Shown: piece after piece, positions 1 through 19,159 of the stretch
Numbering within the stretch: the first letter of the stretch is position 1
How the letters are laid out: each line of letters opens with the position of its first letter
Assembly (NCBI GenBank): GCA_947631535.1
Contig: CANRLU010000006.1
Coordinates: forward strand, 1 to 44,836
Direction: 5' to 3'
DNA length: 44,836 nt
Origin: an uncultured Clostridia bacterium
GTDB lineage: Bacteria; Bacillota; Clostridia; Oscillospirales; Ruminococcaceae
Notes under the pieces: generated by a model
Seen by the model: the letters and a program-made list of their open reading frames with translations, nothing else
Told to the model about the DNA's origin: nothing
Database searches by the model: none
Translations under genes and position numbers: made by a program

Positions 1-632
1 GAACGGTCCATAAATGCGCCCGGGTCGCCTTCGTCGGCGTTGCAGCAGACGTATTTCTGGTCGGCGTCGGGAACGAGGTTGCGGGCCATAGACCATTTTC
101 TGCCGGTCGGGAAGCCTGCGCCTCCGCGTCCGCGAAGACCGGATTTGAGCACTACGTCGATGACCTCTTCAGGGGTCATTTCGGTGAGGACTTTGCCGAG
201 AGCGGCATAGCCGTCCATAGCTATGTATTCGTCGATGTTTTCGGGGTTGATAACGCCGCAGTTGCGGAGCGCTACGCGGTGCTGCGCCTTATAGAAGGCG
301 GTGTCGGAAAGGGAGACGTCGGCAACGTTTTCTACCTTTTCCTCGCCGGTGTCGGCATAAACGAGGCGTTCTACAACGCGCCCCTTGAGAAGATGCTCGG
401 TTACTATCTCGGGGACGTCGTCGGGAGTTACTCTCGAATAAAACGTGCCGTCGGGATAGATGATGACTACGGGGCCTAACGCGCAGAGACCGAAGCAGCC
501 GGTCTGCACAAGTTTTACCTCCTCCGAAAGTCCGGCGATCTCTATCTGCTCGTTGAAAGCCTTCTGGATCGCCTTGGAGCCGGACGAGGTACAGCCGGTA
601 CCGCCGCATATCAGCACTTGTGAACGAATCAT
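1..632 (-). CDS. hydB: Electron-bifurcating [FeFe]-hydrogenase subunit HydB (NuoF-like), N-terminal part
   Basis: Cut by the left window edge, so only about 210 N-terminal residues are seen. The translation starts [11 protein letters not shown] and carries a thioredoxin-like 2Fe-2S domain with Cys pairs CGGTGC and CFGLC. It then enters the NuoF-type flavin/NAD fold, including a [13 protein letters not shown] stretch and the [10 protein letters not shown] motif that lines the FMN site. In the HydABC family this subunit takes electrons from NADH at FMN and passes them on through Fe-S clusters with reduced ferredoxin to make H2. A clear AGGAGG lies about 8 bases before the ATG. The gene is the ninth visible one in the operon; hydA should follow beyond the window. 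The ORF track lists only shadow frames here. HydB is favoured over respiratory NuoF because of the neighbours. Confidence 0.9.
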
Positions 633-662: not shown

Positions 663-1031
663 TTACTGGTTGCTGCCGATGGTGTATTCCGAAACCACCG
701 AGCCGCCCTTGAGGTGCTTCTCGATGACCTCTTTTGCCTTTTCGGCGGTCATCTTTACATATGTGACCTTCTCCTTGCCCGCCTCGAAGACCTCGACAAC
801 GGGTTCGTACTGGCAGATGCCGATGCAGCCCGTCTGGGTGACGGTGACCTTGTCGGAAAGGCCCTCGTTGGCCACTCCCTCGACGAACGCCGAGAGGACC
901 GGACGCGCGCCCGCCGCGATGCCGCAGGTCGCCATTCCGACGACTACGCGGATATCGCCCTGACCTTCGCGGAGAACCACTCTGTCTTTCATCTTTTCTC
1001 TGATTGCTGCGAGTTCTGCTAATGATTTCAT
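663..1031 (-). CDS. Thioredoxin-like (2Fe-2S) ferredoxin domain protein of the hydrogenase operon
   Basis: A 122-residue soluble protein that resembles the C-terminal thioredoxin-like ferredoxin domain of NuoE/HydC. The second Cys pair is clear (QTGCIGICQ), but the first, normally CxxxxC, is reduced to a single Cys in VVVGMATCGIAAGA. Small proteins with this same one-plus-two Cys pattern are known to sit next to HydB in many clostridial hydrogenase operons. A predicted amphipathic N-terminus (LAELAAIREKMKDRV) precedes the fold. The gene lies 30 bases before hydB and 52 bases after the GHKL ATPase gene. It is probably an electron-transfer partner or assembly component of the hydrogenase; that role is inferred from position. 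The family assignment is more certain than the role. Confidence 0.85.
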   Translation of the reverse strand: MKSLAELAAIREKMKDRVVLREGQGDIRVVVGMATCGIAAGARPVLSAFVEGVANEGLSDKVTVTQTGCIGICQYEPVVEVFEAGKEKVTYVKMTAEKAKEVIEKHLKGGSVVSEYTIGSNQ

Positions 1032-1083: not shown

Positions 1084-1638
1084 TTATTCCTCACCGTTAT
1101 ACTGCCCGTTAAGGTAGCCGGTTATCCACACGAGGACCTCGGCATTGTCGAGCGGGACGTCTTCGCCCAAAACTTCGCGGAGCTCTTTGGTGTCGAGCTT
1201 CACGTCAAATTCCGGCGAGGTGTGCGTGAAGAGAAAATCTATATCGGGGTTGCCCTGAATAAGCGTTACCACCGACGAGCATATGTCCCCGAGAGGGGTC
1301 ATATCAATGTGGTTTTTATAGAACAGCGCGCGGGTAACGGTCCCGTGGTCGTCGGGCGAAAGCTCCTCGGCCTTAGACTCTATCGACATATTGCCGCCGG
1401 TCTGCTCGGCTTCGAGCTTTAAAAGCGGCAGCCCCAGCCCGACGGGGCGGGTAGTCCTTGTGGTGCAAAAAGGGTCGGTAACGTTTTTGAGGAACTCCGG
1501 AGTCATTCCGCAGCCGTCGTCCGAGATCTTAAGCTCAAGGGTCTCGTCGGTCTCGGTTATCGAAATGACGACGTTCTTCGCGCCCGCTTTTACGGAATTT
1601 TTGGCTATATCCAGAACGTTGAGCGAAAGCTCTTTCAA
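1084..1638 (-). CDS. GHKL-family ATP-binding protein (histidine-kinase-like ATPase)
   Basis: A 184-residue protein with a Bergerat ATP-binding fold and no sensor or phospho-acceptor domain. The N box is LNVLDIAKNSVKAGA, the G1 box is ISDDGCGM, and a G2-like segment reads RPVGLGLPLLK. About 70 further residues follow the ATPase fold and match no domain I can name. Stand-alone ATPases of this type are a constant feature of clostridial HydABC operons. A serine/threonine or histidine kinase role toward a partner is possible, but no partner residue can be read here. It lies 6 bases after the PHP gene, so the two are probably translated together. Confidence 0.85.
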   Translation of the reverse strand: MKELSLNVLDIAKNSVKAGAKNVVISITETDETLELKISDDGCGMTPEFLKNVTDPFCTTRTTRPVGLGLPLLKLEAEQTGGNMSIESKAEELSPDDHGTVTRALFYKNHIDMTPLGDICSSVVTLIQGNPDIDFLFTHTSPEFDVKLDTKELREVLGEDVPLDNAEVLVWITGYLNGQYNGEE

Positions 1639-2379: not shown

Positions 2380-2702
2380 ACGAGACCGGCTATCGCTTTT
2401 GCCGCCTCAAAGGTGGGCACCGGCGCCGAAACAATGTTCACGCCCCGCTGCTCGGCGGTGCTGATGACGTTTTCTTCGAGCGCAACGTTCTCCGAGAGGA
2501 TAATAACCGCGGTGTCGCAAAGGGTCGCGACGGCGACGATGTTTATATTCGACATTATCGTTATCCACGCCTGACCCGAAGAAGCTCTGCCCATCACCCA
2601 GCTTAAAAGGTCGCCGCAGTAGCAGCCCGATACCTCGCGTTCCGGCTCCGGCAGACACACGGCCGCAAATCCGGTCTTCTCGCAAAGCTCTTTTACGGTC
2701 AT
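2376..2702 (-). CDS. DRTGG-domain protein (copy B)
   Basis: A 108-residue protein that looks like a stand-alone DRTGG domain. Typical features are the glycine-rich region GCYCGDLLSWVMG, the AWITIMSNINIVAVATLCD strand-helix, and the repeating AVIILSENVALEENVISTAEQRGVNI segment. DRTGG domains are thought to be ligand-sensing modules and also occur linked to CBS domains. It overlaps both neighbours by four bases: the stop of the HydS-like gene upstream and the start of the PHP gene downstream. The operon encodes a second, clearly related DRTGG protein at 4457-4810. Function is unknown; it may sense a nucleotide. Confidence 0.8.
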   Translation of the reverse strand: MTVKELCEKTGFAAVCLPEPEREVSGCYCGDLLSWVMGRASSGQAWITIMSNINIVAVATLCDTAVIILSENVALEENVISTAEQRGVNIVSAPVPTFEAAKAIAGLV

Positions 2703-4003
2703 ATTCCGCTCTCCTTCCGCTCAGAGGGGTCGAATTTTCTCACGGGCTCGCCGTTTTGCAGGCGGTGAGTTCTTATTATGCAGCTTTCGAGGCTGCGCTC
2801 GCCTTTGACGACGTCTTCGGCGAACGCGCGGCAGTTCGGCGCGCCGCAGGAGCCGCAGTCTATTCCGGGAAGTTCGTCTCTCAGCTTCTGAATGTCTGAC
2901 ATCATTCGCATCGACTCGCCTATCGAGCCGCCGAGGCGGTTCATCGGCTTATAGTCGGGAATGTCTTCAAAGAAGTATTCCGGCGGGATATATTTTTTGT
3001 CGTCGGTCAAGAAGTTCTGCGACACCGGCAGATAGCGCCGAAGCGTCTGGAGCCTCGCCTTTGCGATAAACGGGTTCTCGACGGTCATAACTCCGCCGAC
3101 GCAGCCGCCCGTGCAGGCGTTGAGCTCGATGAATTCGAGCTGCGGGATAGTTCCGTTCTCTATCTGGTCGAGCATCTCGACGACGTTCTCTATGCTGTCG
3201 GCCGCAAGGTATTTGTCGTTGAATATGGCGGTAGCCTCTCCGCCCGAAGCCGCCCAGCTTATGCCTATCATGCCCGAGTTTGAAACGGGCTGCGGGGTCT
3301 TGTCGCGGCTCATAAGATTGAGAAGTGAGAAGTAGATATCGCTCATCGAGACGACGAGGTCGATATTAGACTTATACTCGCCGAAGCCGTTCTTTACATA
3401 GCTGGTTTTCGCGGGGCAGGGGGAGATGAAGCATACGCCTATGTCTTCGTCCTTGAGCTCGGGGTGAGCGGCCTTGGCGCGCTTTCTCGCCTCTATCGCG
3501 GCTATCTCCATCGGCGGGAGGATAGGCAGAAGATTGTCTTTAAGATAGGGGAACCTGAGCGCTATCAGCCTCGCGATAACGGGGCAGGCCGAGCTTATGA
3601 CCGGCTTTTTTATGCCCTCGGTCTTAAGGTAAAGGCGGGTGTATTCCGAGACTATCTCCGCCGCCTGCGATACCTCATAGACGTCGTTGAAGCCCATATC
3701 CAAAAGGCCCTGCAAAACGTAATCGACGTCTTCGAGCCCCTCGAACTGGCCGTAAAGCGAAGGCGCAGGCAAAGCTATCCTCCACTTATAGTCGTAGAGG
3801 TGATCGAGCTTGTTGCAGGTAGCTATCTTTGCGTGGTGCTGACACACCCTTATGCACTCGCCGCAGTCGATGCAGCGGTCGGGGTTGATGACGGCGTGCC
3901 CGCCGTCCACTCTTATTGCCTCGGTGGGACAGCGCTTTATGCAGGTGGTGCAGCCTGTGCAGCGCGACTCGTCGAGCGATACCGAGTGTTCGTATGTATT
4001 CAT
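2699..4003 (-). CDS. hydS: HydS-like [FeFe]-hydrogenase homologue (putative sensory hydrogenase)
   Basis: A 434-residue protein. It opens with two 4Fe-4S ferredoxin motifs (C15,18,21,25 and C44,47,50,54), followed by an H-cluster domain and a C-terminal GIDCGSCGAPNC iron-sulfur motif. The four Cys that hold the H-cluster are present: C140 in SSACP, C196 in SPCPAK, and C297/C301 in NACTGGCVGG. The Cys next to the first ligand, which shuttles protons in catalytic enzymes (TSCCP), is Ala139 here. Loss of that Cys is described for the sensory-type HydS of Thermotoga maritima. Unlike that protein, this one shows no PAS domain after the last Fe-S motif. It is probably a redox or H2 sensor rather than the main hydrogenase, which is expected to be HydA. 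Confidence 0.85.
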   Translation of the reverse strand: MNTYEHSVSLDESRCTGCTTCIKRCPTEAIRVDGGHAVINPDRCIDCGECIRVCQHHAKIATCNKLDHLYDYKWRIALPAPSLYGQFEGLEDVDYVLQGLLDMGFNDVYEVSQAAEIVSEYTRLYLKTEGIKKPVISSACPVIARLIALRFPYLKDNLLPILPPMEIAAIEARKRAKAAHPELKDEDIGVCFISPCPAKTSYVKNGFGEYKSNIDLVVSMSDIYFSLLNLMSRDKTPQPVSNSGMIGISWAASGGEATAIFNDKYLAADSIENVVEMLDQIENGTIPQLEFIELNACTGGCVGGVMTVENPFIAKARLQTLRRYLPVSQNFLTDDKKYIPPEYFFEDIPDYKPMNRLGGSIGESMRMMSDIQKLRDELPGIDCGSCGAPNCRAFAEDVVKGERSLESCIIRTHRLQNGEPVRKFDPSERKESGI

Positions 4004-4037: not shown

Positions 4038-4460
4038 TCAGAAATTTACGCACATAGTGATCTTGGTACCCTTGCCGAGTTCCGTCTCTATGTCCATTTT
4101 ATCGGTATATCTTTTCATATTGGGCAGACCCATTCCCGCGCCGAATCCGAGCGACCTTATATTGTCGGGCGCGGTGGAATAGCCCTCTTTCATTGCGAGC
4201 TCTATATTGGGTATGCCGGGGCCGTGGTCGTTGAGGATTATCTCTATCCTGTCCTCATAGACCACAACGTCGGCCTCGCCGCCGTGGGCGTGAATGACCA
4301 TATTTATCTCGCCCTCGTACATGGCTATGGATACCCTTCTTATCACATCGGCGGGTATGCCGAGCTCGCGCAGGTTCTTTTTTACCTGCACGGAAGCCTG
4401 CCCCGCAGTGGTGAAATTAGAGCCGTCAACGTTGAAATGGAATCTCAGGGATTCGCTCAT
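4038..4460 (-). CDS. RsbW-like GHKL ATPase (anti-sigma-factor-type kinase)
   Basis: A 140-residue protein of the anti-sigma-factor serine kinase type. The N box is AMYEGEINMVIHAHGG, the G1 box is LNDHGPGIP, and the G2 loop is GFGAGMGLPNMKRY. The fold ends with KGTKITM. It differs from the other ATPase in the operon (1084-1638) in having no extra C-terminal region. In this family such proteins bind or phosphorylate a small partner. No STAS-domain antagonist or PP2C phosphatase is encoded in the window. Its ATG overlaps the stop of the upstream DRTGG gene by four bases, and the HydS-like gene starts 34 bases downstream, so the three are likely one functional block. Confidence 0.87.
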   Translation of the reverse strand: MSESLRFHFNVDGSNFTTAGQASVQVKKNLRELGIPADVIRRVSIAMYEGEINMVIHAHGGEADVVVYEDRIEIILNDHGPGIPNIELAMKEGYSTAPDNIRSLGFGAGMGLPNMKRYTDKMDIETELGKGTKITMCVNF

Positions 4461-4846: not shown

Positions 4847-5350
4847 TCAGGCGTATTTTGCCAAAATGGTGTCTACGTCGTTTGCGGTAAGTCTTCCGTA
4901 AACGTCTTCTCCCACGGTCATAACGGGGGCAAGTCCGCAGGCGCCGATGCAGCGGCAGGCTTCGAGCGAGAATTTACCGTCGGGAGTGCACTCGCCGGGG
5001 CCTATCTTGAGGACTTCGGTGAGCCTGTCAAGAATCTGCTGCGAGCCCTTTACATAGCAGGCGGTGCCGAGGCAGACCGAGATCTGATGATCGCCCTTGG
5101 GCGAGAGAGCAAACTGCGCATAGAAGGTGGCGATGCCGTAAACTTCCTCTACCGAAACGCCCATGCCCTCGGCTATCATCGACTGTACTTCAAGAGGGAG
5201 GTAGCCGTAAATCTCCTGAGCGTCCTGCATAACCTGCATAAGAGAGCCCTCTACATGCTTCTTTTCGTTGATTATCGCCTTGAGTTTTGCCTCCTGTTCG
5301 GGTGTGCCGCGGAAGGGAACTGTGCTTGCGCGTTTTTTCATGGTATCCAT
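4847..5350 (-). CDS. hydC: Electron-bifurcating [FeFe]-hydrogenase subunit HydC (NuoE-like)
   Basis: A 167-residue NuoE-family protein. An N-terminal helical region (residues about 15-75) includes the VMQDAQEIYGYLP segment typical of NuoE. A thioredoxin-like domain follows with the 2Fe-2S ligands in the classic CxxxxC (CLGTAC) and CxxxC (CIGAC) pattern. In HydABC it passes electrons between HydB and HydA. It is the first gene of the operon and has its own good promoter about 50 bases upstream, with a GAAAGGATGG ribosome site. The length is usual for the family. HydC rather than respiratory NuoE is called because no other complex I genes are near. Confidence 0.92.
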   Translation of the reverse strand: MDTMKKRASTVPFRGTPEQEAKLKAIINEKKHVEGSLMQVMQDAQEIYGYLPLEVQSMIAEGMGVSVEEVYGIATFYAQFALSPKGDHQISVCLGTACYVKGSQQILDRLTEVLKIGPGECTPDGKFSLEACRCIGACGLAPVMTVGEDVYGRLTANDVDTILAKYA

Positions 5351-5399: not shown

Positions 5400-5428
5400 A
5401 GTATAGCATATTGCCGCGAGAATATCAA
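5400..5428 (-). promoter_or_regulatory. Sigma-A-type promoter of the hydrogenase operon
   Basis: Reading leftward: -35 TTGATA (5423-5428), a 17-base spacer, and -10 TATACT (5400-5405) preceded by TGC as an extended -10. The hydC start codon is about 50 bases downstream, and a terminator for nth lies just upstream. Confidence 0.75.
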
Positions 5429-6211: not shown

Positions 6212-6776
6212 GAAGGAGTGAGAGAGGAAATGTCAAATTGAGCGGAAAACTAAAAGTTTTCGGTTGAGACTGTTATAAGAGACTTTCCGCCTGACGGGGG
6301 AGTTTTCGGCGGAGGCCGAGGTTTTTGCTTCCACACCCCCTGCCCCCTCTCCCTCATAGAGGAAGAGGGCAAGCGACGCTCCAACTGTGTTGCCTTCCCC
6401 TGCTAAACTCTGCCAAGCGGGGGCCGCTCCTTTGCCTTGGGCGGCAAAAGTCGGCGCACTCTTTCGGGTCGAGAGCGAAGCGAACGACAAATGCGGCGTG
6501 ACTATGATACCTCCCCTGCTAAACTCTGCCAAGCGGGAACCGCTCATTTGCCTTGGGCGGCAAAAGTCGGCGCACTCTTTCGGGTCGAGAGCGAAGCGAA
6601 CGACAGATGCGGCGTGACTATGACACCTCCCCTGCTAAACTCTGCCAAGCGGGAACCGCTCATTTGCCTTGGGCGGCAAAAGTCGGCGCACTCTTTCGGG
6701 GCGAGAGCGAAGCGAACGACAGATGCGGCGTGACTATGATACCTTTTTTCGACGCCGCATTGGCGCCGCATTATTG
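6212..6776. other. Long spacer between nth and secA
   Basis: No gene is supported in this stretch. It begins with an AT-rich end near the nth promoter, then a GC-rich segment (6290-6395) with a CCCTCT...AGAGGAAGAGGG inverted motif. Three 116-bp tandem repeats (6396-6743) and a TTTTTTC tract next to a GGCGCC palindrome follow. The ORFs listed here are chance reading frames through the repeats, because the 116-bp unit is not a multiple of three. Confidence 0.7.
6396..6743. repeat. Three tandem copies of a 116-bp repeat
   Basis: The copies span 6396-6511, 6512-6627 and 6628-6743, each starting TCCCCTGCTAAACTCTGCC and ending in ATGAYACC. Copies 2 and 3 differ at only two bases; copy 1 differs from copy 2 mainly in GCGGGGGCCGCTCC versus GCGGGAACCGCTCA. 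Each unit contains a short hairpin AGCGG-NNN-CCGCT and a TGCC/GGCA inverted pair. The near identity suggests recent amplification. The function is unknown: it could be a non-coding RNA unit or a genome-wide interspersed element. Confidence 0.93.
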
Positions 6777-15856: not shown

Positions 15857-15892
15857 ACCTGAAAAATGAATAATGATTTAGGAGGTCATTAT

Positions 15893-18800
15893 ATGGCAAA
15901 GAAAATTTTGGCAGTGCTTCTTGCGCTGGCAATGACTCTTTCTCTGTTCAGCTTCAATGTCTTTGCGGCTGATGAAGTTGTCGAATATGAGACTGCCGTT
16001 TCTCTCATTACTGACGGCAAGGGTCTGACCGGTACTGCCTTTACCGGCCCTACCATTGGTTGGGGTTCAAAGGCTATTGAGAGCACATCTGCCGAATGGG
16101 CGGATTTTGTTGAGGCTGTCAATACCGAAGGCGCAAGATTCGTATTGAAATACACCATAACCGGTGAGCCCGGAAAAAATGACAAGGGCGAAGATGACTA
16201 CGGTTGGTTCAACTTCTTCCAGGCTTCTACCGAGCCCGGCGGAACCGGCCACGTCAGCGTTCCTAACTACAGCAGTGACGCCGGTAAGTTTGTCGATACT
16301 CTCGACGGCGAAGTTATGAGCAATCAGTGGAGCCTTCTCCACGCCGGCGAGCACGTTGTTACTTACAACACCGCCGATTGGCTCGAAGTTATCACTACAC
16401 ACACCTGCACTGACCACCACCCAGATGGGGGGGTCACGCTTGATGATGTGACTAACCTTTGCTTCCAGTCCGGTATGCCTGCTTCTCTCGAAGTTGCTTT
16501 TAATAGCCTCGTTGTTGAAGTTCCTAAGACTGCAGATCCCGAGCCGGAGCCGTCAGTTACTTACGAGGAAACTGCTATAGACGGCGCAAAGGTAGTAGAC
16601 GTTAATGTTGCAGTTTCTGCGGATAAGGATGCTCCTACTCCTGTAAGCTGGGTCTTTGACCCGTCCGGAGCAGGTTTTGGAAATCAGGTCATAGACCAGT
16701 CGTTCAAAACTCCGTACGAAACAAATCCTGACGCTTATATTAAGCTCACTCTTTCTGCAGAAGGATCAGTCACCGCTATCGGCGGTTACAGCTCCCAGAA
16801 TGTGTCGAAAGACAACATCAAGTATGTTGATAATCCTACCATTATCACTGTTGCCGGCGAAGACGGCGTTACCGTTTATATTCCCGCCAAGGAAGTTGTA
16901 GACGCTTTTGGCGATATAGGCGGAATGTGGGGCATTGCTATCACCGGTACCGGAACCGTTAAGACTTTCAGCCTTGTTAATCTTAAGGAATCCGGAACCG
17001 AGCCCGATGAGCCTCCTGTCGATGAAGACGACCTTGCCCTTTCCCAGAAGTTTGAGTGGGGCCGTTGGGCGGCAGAAGCCATCAACCTGTATGAAAACGA
17101 GGAAGGCGTTGCCCGCTACAGCACTACTGTCGGCGAAATCCTCGCAAGATTCGGCACTGCCGAAATCACTTTCACTGTAAAGAGCGTTACCGGTGAAAAG
17201 GCTACCGAGACCGACGTAAGCAAAGTCTTTACCGACATCGTCGGTTCCGCAACCGATCACGGCTGGATAGCCGGTGCCAAATTCACCACCACCAACGACG
17301 GCGGCAAGGTCACCGTTACCATAGACCTTAAGTCGATCTTTAAAGATTGCAGTGCTTCTAATAAATTCAACGAGTTCAAGCTCTTTGTGCTCACCCCCGG
17401 CACTGATCCTGCCGACGAAGAAGCAAGAATCACCACCGTTATTACCGAGCCTGTACTTAGATTCGTCGAAAAGGCTCCCGAAGAAAGCGAGCCTAAGGGC
17501 TACGTCACTGATCCCGCTTTTACCGAAGCCGAGGTTACCGTTGACGAAGACGGCAACATAGTTATCACTCCCGACGGTAAGGTTGAGACTGAGGGCCTTC
17601 TCATCACCTTCGACGGCGACGGCGCTCCCGCTGACGGTACTGTTGTAGTAAATTGCGTCACCGATGACGGCGAACAGATCGAAGTCTTCAATGAACCCGA
17701 CGGCAAATCCTTTGATGACTGCGTCAATTCTTGGGACTTCTGCGGATTCGGCGGACTTTGGGGAAGAGATTGCGCCAACATCTTTGACATCACTCTTGAA
17801 AGAGTAAGGGAAATCTTCGCCACCGAAGGCGCATCGTTCGTCTACGTGTACGGCGGAACTCCCGGTTATAACAACGGCGGCACTCCCGCTGCGGTTCTCA
17901 ACGGTAACTTCGAAGCCGGCACTAACTTTGCCGTAACTGTAGAAGACGGTCTCAGAGTCGGAACCGTTAAGCTCGCTGATGTTATGGCCAAGTCCGGAGT
18001 TACTGCAGACAAGATTGATAACTTTGTTATACAGATAAGTACTGACAACTTCAAGCTTTACAAGGCTTACTTCGTTCTTCCCGGTGTTGCCGGCGCAGCG
18101 CCCGTTGAATTCAAGGCCGGTCAGAAGTATGTCGAAATTCCTACCAGTAAGAAATCTGCCATTACAAGTGTCGTCATCTCCTACGAGGGCGCAAAGGCTG
18201 AAGATATCGTTTCCGTCAAGGTCAAGTCCGAAGACGAATACAATCCCTTTGCCGGCCTGAACGGCTACACCATTCAGCTCGGTGAGGATTATCACGGCTT
18301 CCTCTTCGGCGGACACCTCATCACCCTGCCTCACACCTTCGGCGACGACAACATCTGCACCGCTTGCAGCTACGAGAGAAAGAATGTCGGCCCCGAGACC
18401 GTTGAACCCGATTGGGTCCTCGAAAAGACCGGAGGTCAGGACTTCAATGATCTTACCGTTGCCGGCGGCCTCGAGCTCGTCACTACCAACGGCAGGACCC
18501 GTCTCGCAACGAGCTGGCAGAGCGACGTTTACGGTCAGCTTGTAGACGCTCTTAACACCTACACCGATGACATAATCAAGATCACCTACACCGGAACCAT
18601 CACCGCTTTCGGTATCGAATCCGAAAATGCCGGCATTATCGACGTCGAGTGCGAAGTCACCGAGGGCGACAAGAACGTTATGACCGTCTCCGTTGCCGAC
18701 TTCCTCGAGGCCGGAAAGCCCGCCCTTGATGATTCCAGCTGGAGAAACATCTACGTAGTAGCCGAGGATGGCGCTGTTCTCTACAGCTTCGAGATCATCA

Positions 18801-19159
18801 AAGACGTTCCCGTGGAAGAGCCCAAGCCTGAGCTTACCACTCTTGACCAGGGCGATGCCTGCGTCATAGACATCTCCGATCTCGGCCTCAAGTCCGGCGA
18901 CACCGTTCACATCAAGATTGCCGGTACCGTAAGCACTTCCGTAGACGCTATCCGCCTCTTCCTCGCGACCGAGGGTGCGTTCAACAACAACGCGTCCGAT
19001 ATCGTAAATGCTGAGCTCGACGGCAACTCCTTCACCTTTGAAGGCGACCTCACTGCTCAGGGCGACATCCTCTACCTCTACCTCAAGTCGCAGGCCGGCG
19101 GCCCCGCCCTTCACCCGAACAACTTCGAATTCACCGTTTTCTCGGCTGAAAAGGCGTAA
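15893..19159 (+). CDS. Large secreted modular beta-sandwich protein, function unknown
   Basis: A 1088-residue protein. The start is the ATG at 15893, not the ORF-track 15866, because AGGAGGT lies five bases upstream and a clean signal peptide follows (MAKKILAVLLALAMTLSLFS, cleavage likely after VFA). The mature part appears to hold about six beta-rich modules of 120-200 residues. They are separated by acidic Pro/Glu linkers such as PEPEPS, TEPDEPPVDEDD and KAPEESEP, and several end in similar strands (VKTFSLVNL, VLRFVEKA, KLYKAYFVL, VLYSFEIIK). One HTFGDDNICTAC motif resembles a linker often seen in gut clostridial surface proteins. No catalytic motif, LPXTG, SLH or clear dockerin was found. 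Codons end in T more often than in neighbouring genes. Carbohydrate-binding or adhesin roles are possible. Confidence 0.8.
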   Translation: MAKKILAVLLALAMTLSLFSFNVFAADEVVEYETAVSLITDGKGLTGTAFTGPTIGWGSKAIESTSAEWADFVEAVNTEGARFVLKYTITGEPGKNDKGEDDYGWFNFFQASTEPGGTGHVSVPNYSSDAGKFVDTLDGEVMSNQWSLLHAGEHVVTYNTADWLEVITTHTCTDHHPDGGVTLDDVTNLCFQSGMPASLEVAFNSLVVEVPKTADPEPEPSVTYEETAIDGAKVVDVNVAVSADKDAPTPVSWVFDPSGAGFGNQVIDQSFKTPYETNPDAYIKLTLSAEGSVTAIGGYSSQNVSKDNIKYVDNPTIITVAGEDGVTVYIPAKEVVDAFGDIGGMWGIAITGTGTVKTFSLVNLKESGTEPDEPPVDEDDLALSQKFEWGRWAAEAINLYENEEGVARYSTTVGEILARFGTAEITFTVKSVTGEKATETDVSKVFTDIVGSATDHGWIAGAKFTTTNDGGKVTVTIDLKSIFKDCSASNKFNEFKLFVLTPGTDPADEEARITTVITEPVLRFVEKAPEESEPKGYVTDPAFTEAEVTVDEDGNIVITPDGKVETEGLLITFDGDGAPADGTVVVNCVTDDGEQIEVFNEPDGKSFDDCVNSWDFCGFGGLWGRDCANIFDITLERVREIFATEGASFVYVYGGTPGYNNGGTPAAVLNGNFEAGTNFAVTVEDGLRVGTVKLADVMAKSGVTADKIDNFVIQISTDNFKLYKAYFVLPGVAGAAPVEFKAGQKYVEIPTSKKSAITSVVISYEGAKAEDIVSVKVKSEDEYNPFAGLNGYTIQLGEDYHGFLFGGHLITLPHTFGDDNICTACSYERKNVGPETVEPDWVLEKTGGQDFNDLTVAGGLELVTTNGRTRLATSWQSDVYGQLVDALNTYTDDIIKITYTGTITAFGIESENAGIIDVECEVTEGDKNVMTVSVADFLEAGKPALDDSSWRNIYVVAEDGAVLYSFEIIKDVPVEEPKPELTTLDQGDACVIDISDLGLKSGDTVHIKIAGTVSTSVDAIRLFLATEGAFNNNASDIVNAELDGNSFTFEGDLTAQGDILYLYLKSQAGGPALHPNNFEFTVFSAEKA

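Follow-up and report, generated by a model that had tools for sequence, protein, structure and literature searches.

An [FeFe]-hydrogenase-like gene whose product has alanine in place of the proton-relay cysteine and no PAS domain raises the question of which hydrogenase class it belongs to, which proteins would carry its signal and whether its host can build an H-cluster for it. The gene, hydS, lies in a stretch of 44,836 nucleotides from an uncultured Clostridia bacterium of the Ruminococcaceae (GenBank assembly GCA_947631535.1, contig CANRLU010000006.1). This stretch, here called the window, is the whole contig and ends inside hydB. A preliminary description had placed the reading frame at 2699-4003; the coordinates are right but the strand is the minus one, with an ATG at 4003, a stop at 2699 and 434 codons for amino acids between, the plus-strand reading of the same interval being interrupted by stops.

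The encoded protein begins with two [4Fe-4S] motifs (Fer4, PF00037 twice), continues with the H-domain (Fe_hyd_lg_C, 1.8e-24) and ends in a PF04060 FeS domain (2.5e-14). No PAS domain was matched in Pfam. The four H-cluster ligands that had been read from the sequence, C140, C196, C297 and C301, are all present, as is Ala139 at the proton-shuttle position in the context ISSACP, and the ligand cysteines and Ala139 are invariant across 57 relatives. The C-terminal motif, earlier called CxxC-type, is an Fe-S motif but in full a four-cysteine site, C383-x2-C386-x4-C391-x16-C408 (Cx2Cx4Cx16C, [4Fe-4S]). An AlphaFold2 model built on 34 relatives (pLDDT 84.7, pTM 0.84) matches solved [FeFe]-hydrogenases in Foldseek (best E 2.3e-17), and this match, together with the invariance of the ligands and of Ala139, argues that the features did not arise by chance.

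Judged by its sequence, HydS is a typical [FeFe]-hydrogenase of group D (M2e), resembling TamHydS of Thermoanaerobacter mathranii. Land et al. 2020 described group D as having no PAS domain, a non-conserved C299, a C-terminal Cx2Cx4Cx16C cluster, Ser in place of M353 and Leu in place of M497, its genes often sharing an operon with a group A enzyme and with a histidine-kinase-like ATPase alongside (PMC8163306); Cabotaje et al. 2023 added the TamHydS residues A137, E252, E289, D265 and S249 (PMC10407848). HydS shares with TamHydS the domain layout, the C-terminal cluster, the missing PAS domain and the replacement of Cys299, M353 and M497 (CpI numbering), here by A139, S194 and L294. The pathway residues E252, E289, D265 and S249 correspond to E256, E293, D269 and S253 when matched via the numbering offset. 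Among further residues named for TamHydS (PMC13104023), R31, K59, D382, E396 and D397 match in HydS, whereas R32, K35 and D403 are replaced by D33, H36 and S407. Both genes adjoin a histidine-kinase-like ATPase in an operon with HydABC-type genes, but the other flank of TamHydS is an AraC-type regulator (PMC8163306), whereas that of HydS is a DRTGG-domain gene.

The preliminary description had proposed a tree as a check. In a maximum-likelihood tree of 38 sequences, with groups labelled by domain layout and motifs and with no named TamHydS or TmHydS sequence included, HydS falls inside the D clade (support 100/99), which is sister to PAS-bearing group C (98/94) and separate from groups A and B. 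Forcing HydS into group A costs 92.6 log-likelihood units (AU p=2e-101) and forcing it into group C costs 38.1 (AU p=0.0016). Group A membership is thus rejected by this test and by Ala139, which replaces the relay Cys of the TSCCP motif; group C (M2f) membership is rejected by the test, the missing PAS domain and the pocket residues. The earlier label "HydS-like" was therefore well chosen, and the absence of PAS was correctly seen. What does not hold is that alanine and the missing PAS domain are anomalies, or that PAS is expected in this class, because HydS shows the sequence traits of group D listed above and for group D both are normal (PMC8163306, PMC10407848). The yardstick used, TmHydS of Thermotoga maritima, is a group C (M2f) protein; it too is a putative sensor with a relay alanine and a C-terminal [4Fe-4S] cluster, but its group differs in the pocket and in having a PAS domain, and the tree separates the PAS-bearing sequences from group D.

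The genes around hydS are collected in Table 1.

Table 1. Features of the hydS neighbourhood, by position in the window
Feature	Position	Strand	Evidence or remark
HydB (NuoF-like), 5' part	1..632	-	gene cut by contig end
Thioredoxin-like [2Fe-2S] protein, fourth HydABC-type subunit	663..1031	-	PF01257 3.7e-6
Histidine-kinase-type HATPase (HATPase2) without HisKA domain	1084..1638	-	PF02518 2.6e-13
PHP-domain phosphoesterase, 244 aa	1645..2379	-	PF02811 1.5e-10
DRTGG-domain protein 2 (DRTGG2), 108 aa	2376..2702	-	PF07085 7.2e-6
HydS, group D (M2e) [FeFe]-hydrogenase, 434 aa	2699..4003	-	domains, motifs, tree, AlphaFold2 model
SpoIIAB/RsbW-like GHKL ATPase (possible Ser/Thr kinase or anti-sigma factor)	4038..4460	-	PF02518/PF13581
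DRTGG-domain protein 1 (DRTGG1), 117 aa	4457..4810	-	PF07085 2e-6
HydC (NuoE-like [2Fe-2S] subunit), first operon gene	4847..5350	-	PF01257 1.1e-50
Possible sigma-70 promoter, extended -10 (TTGATA-17-TATACT), upstream of hydC	5400..5428	-	consensus match only

Read along the minus strand, the genes are hydC, DRTGG1, ATPase, hydS, DRTGG2, PHP, HATPase2, the thioredoxin-like gene and hydB, with 4-nt overlaps at three junctions (DRTGG1/ATPase, HydS/DRTGG2 and DRTGG2/PHP). The flanking genes are those of a HydABC electron-bifurcating (group A3) operon. Since the contig ends inside hydB, hydA lies off it; in genus relatives whose loci run on, hydA comes after hydB, and we do not conclude that this organism has lost it. 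Contigs repeatedly end inside hydB (the window, L038, L039, L065, L100 and others), and hydA is missing from them.

Across 80 named genome loci, with HydS 56-93% identical, the neighbours barely change: DRTGG1 adjoins the ATPase in 77 of 78, the ATPase adjoins HydS in 79 of 80, HydS adjoins DRTGG2 in 77 of 79 and DRTGG2 adjoins PHP in 75 of 77. At two loci (L123 and L135) the genes from DRTGG1 to PHP form one block ahead of hydC-HATPase2-Trx-hydB-hydA, an order in which HATPase2 travels with HydC and HydB and not with HydS, and one relative (G028, locus L045) has the five genes without any hydABC block. The sensor and hydrogenase modules can therefore be told apart: hydS sits in a nearly invariant five-gene module that can stand apart from the HydABC genes, although usually found with them in one apparent operon. 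Four bins labelled Atopobiaceae, Coriobacteriales or actinobacterium (L082, L093, L098 and L114) carry the same operon, with HydS 67-68% identical to that of the window, by gene transfer or as mixed bins. A literature search within open-access coverage, with most subscription journals outside it, gave nothing on point about DRTGG or PHP proteins beside hydrogenases. Elsewhere in the window, 6396-6744 holds three tandem copies, 96% alike, of a 116-bp unit between an endonuclease III gene and secA, and 15866-19159 holds a 1097-aa frame without a match in Pfam, opposed on the other strand by an open frame of 782 aa.

The ATPase next to hydS scores 2.2e-16 and 60 bits against the spIIAB profile, under its curated cut-off of 135, and its closest solved structures are those of anti-sigma F (1tid/1th8). 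It is a GHKL protein like the SpoIIAB/RsbW anti-sigma kinases, with the N, G1 and G2 nucleotide-binding boxes intact and the motifs YEGEINMVIHA, GPGI and GFGAGMGLPNM invariant; in contrast to those systems, the operon has no sigma factor or SpoIIAA-like antagonist. The ATPase may thus work like SpoIIAB, although its score lies outside the family. In the PHP protein the metal-ligand residues are invariant (DxHxHS, TDHN, G-E-TT, H77, H155 and SDxH). DRTGG1 gave no match to solved structures. What the PHP and DRTGG proteins may do is guessed from their domains.

Taken together, we consider it likely that HydS is a sensory-type group D [FeFe]-hydrogenase serving as the sensor subunit of the module formed by DRTGG1, the SpoIIAB-like ATPase, HydS itself, DRTGG2 and PHP. 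With its Fe-S clusters, and with the H-cluster where one is made, HydS would sense the redox state of the ferredoxin/NADH/H2 pool and relay it through contact with another protein, most probably the SpoIIAB-like ATPase. The latter would phosphorylate or sequester a partner, a signal that the PHP protein would undo or modulate. The preliminary description had already supposed that output goes through another protein, which seems probable; its choice of the adjacent ATPases agrees with our favoured candidate but is not new, as the same was proposed for TamHydS (PMC8163306). TamHydS is a slow yet real H2 enzyme in vitro, so HydS may have a catalytic side role as well.

That description had also assumed an H-cluster in HydS. 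The diiron part of this cofactor is ordinarily assembled by the maturases HydE, HydF and HydG (PMC6212873). These were sought by six-frame HMM searches, on which the absences given here rest, with profiles for HydG (TIGR03955), the HydF C-terminal domain (PF18133) and HydE (TIGR03956). None of the three was found in any of 19 sampled genomes of the genus (G000-G018), 16 of them at least 95% complete, and the [FeFe]-hydrogenase domain is present in 18 of the 19. Nine genus genomes searched at E<=0.001 yielded no HydG match whatever, and in the five tested with the HydF profile the only matches had scores typical of generic GTPases. Among 31 relatives, HydE, HydG and the HydF C-terminal domain co-occur in the same seven, as in the T. 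maritima control, and are jointly absent from the rest. The lack of maturases in the genus, a difference from TamHydS, places the assumed H-cluster in doubt.

The gap extends beyond the genus. In a survey of 245 genomes of the order, PF02906 was found in 181 of the 185 near-complete genomes and HydG in 85 of the 185, which leaves at least 96 near-complete genomes with the hydrogenase domain but no HydG, more than half of those bearing the domain (at least 96/181). Group D HydS was met in 50 genomes, draft bins of unstated completeness, of which 13 have HydG. Among these 50, HydF is also missing in 26 of 30 HydG-less genomes tested and present in all eight HydG-bearing genomes tested. Genomes in few contigs behave alike: G255 (3 contigs) and G206 (10 contigs) have HydS without HydG and HydF, and G186 (1 contig) lacks HydS as well as HydG and HydF. 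Six genomes (G122, G236, G275, G282, G289 and G291) have the HydF domain and no detectable HydG, whether by partial loss or as mixed bins. Within open-access coverage, which is incomplete, we found no report of bacteria with an [FeFe]-hydrogenase and no maturases. The eukaryote Blastocystis ST1 likewise keeps a hydrogenase gene without HydF and HydG, and it was suggested to serve some purpose other than making H2 (PMC5608401); that enzyme differs in class and context, whereas here a whole bacterial genus is concerned and the operon is intact.

HydS is under strong purifying selection in the genus, with dN/dS of 0.05-0.07 among close relatives at dS >1, where near saturation makes the ratio approximate. 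A decayed gene was rejected on this ratio and the invariant ligands, and a TGA that appeared to lie inside the HydS of G197 was only its natural stop codon. A139, S194, K199, E256, D269, E293, L294 and the ligands do not vary among 42 HydS of HydG-less genomes and 15 of HydG-bearing ones. Maturase presence switches at least nine times on the HydS tree, a count that incomplete bins and gene transfer may confuse. In a single case, locus L157 of G191 (without HydG and HydF), HydS no longer has the pocket Lys and Ser and reads VPCSSQ instead of SPCPAK; its tree neighbour L156, from HydG-bearing G256, retains PCPAK.

The HydA of all HydS operons examined carries Ser in place of the proton-relay Cys (TSCSPGW instead of TSCCPGW; e.g., L032:8927-10684), two TSCCPGW rows in the comparison lying outside HydS operons; HydS itself stays outside the group A clade. 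The corresponding change, C298S, left CaHydA below detection (PMC3485046). As TSCSPGW occurs with and without maturases, it was discarded as a marker of their loss; the motif has been mentioned for Melainabacteria ACD20 (PMC3787301). In each of two maturase-less genomes, G002 and G001, the neighbour of a HydB-like gene (L047:3738-5186 and L048:4579-6027) encodes a protein of 482 aa with a hydrogenase domain. The L1 motif of these proteins is degraded (QSACAP) and their branch in the tree very long; the H-domain may have been co-opted for another function here.

Given that no HydE, HydF or HydG was found, our leading reading is that HydS of this genus is a redox sensor which may work on [4Fe-4S] clusters alone. 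It would never receive [2Fe], would signal the redox state of its [4Fe-4S] clusters and would keep the pocket for the sake of the cubane site and the fold. We lean to this only tentatively, at somewhat under an even chance, and favour it over an unknown maturation route, the remainder falling to missed genes, a relic and catalytic readings. Besides the genus-wide absence, it draws on the decoupling of HydS from maturase presence along the tree, on the relay Ser of the partner HydA, since that change strongly impairs CaHydA, and on the loss of pocket residues in maturase-less G191. However, the [2Fe] pocket is otherwise invariant even without maturases, which argues against a purely cubane-only HydS, and TamHydS with [2Fe] is H2-responsive. 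In G028, moreover, HydE, HydG and HydF lie side by side, away from the HydS module, and no hydrogenase-domain protein other than HydS was detected; a complete HydEFG set kept, it appears, for this one protein suggests that group D HydS uses an H-cluster with its diiron site there. The same invariant residues, K199, E256, E293, S194, D269 and the ligand cysteines, and the strong selection speak for an H2 sensor as proposed for TamHydS, with a complete H-cluster whose [2Fe] site comes from another source, through unrecognised maturation or maturases that have diverged beyond detection. The spontaneous uptake of synthetic [2Fe] by TamHydS in vitro (PMC8163306) also favours this alternative. It is rather unlikely in our estimate: nine genus genomes hold no HydG-like protein at the threshold above, the three maturases come and go jointly among relatives, and no candidate replacement enzyme was encountered in a search that was non-systematic.

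Two further readings seem very improbable. That HydS is a plain catalytic, group A-like subunit would suit its H-domain and its place in a hydrogenase operon, but the tree rejects group A, the relay Cys and both flanking Met are replaced, and relatives have a dedicated HydA in the same operon. Decay of the whole hydrogenase operon since the loss of HydEFG would fit maturases missing genus-wide and absent in scattered fashion across the order; open frames, invariant ligands, the low dN/dS and an operon intact across relatives make such a relic hard to credit. Returning to the redox-sensor reading and its H2-sensing alternative, it is on balance probable that, lacking HydE, HydF and HydG, a gut Clostridia lineage runs HydS together with a HydABC-type enzyme whose relay Cys is replaced by Ser, either as pure Fe-S redox devices or with an unknown diiron route.

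For the family, the five-gene module names probable partners for the signal output of group D HydS. The maturase gap is the part most worth following, as the genus-wide lack of HydEFG amounts to a natural experiment on the HydS cofactor. Should HydS function there with no diiron site, a "sensory hydrogenase" would not have to sense H2; should it possess one, a maturation route awaits discovery. Tallies of hydrogenase genes from gut metagenomes may also overestimate the ability to form or consume H2.
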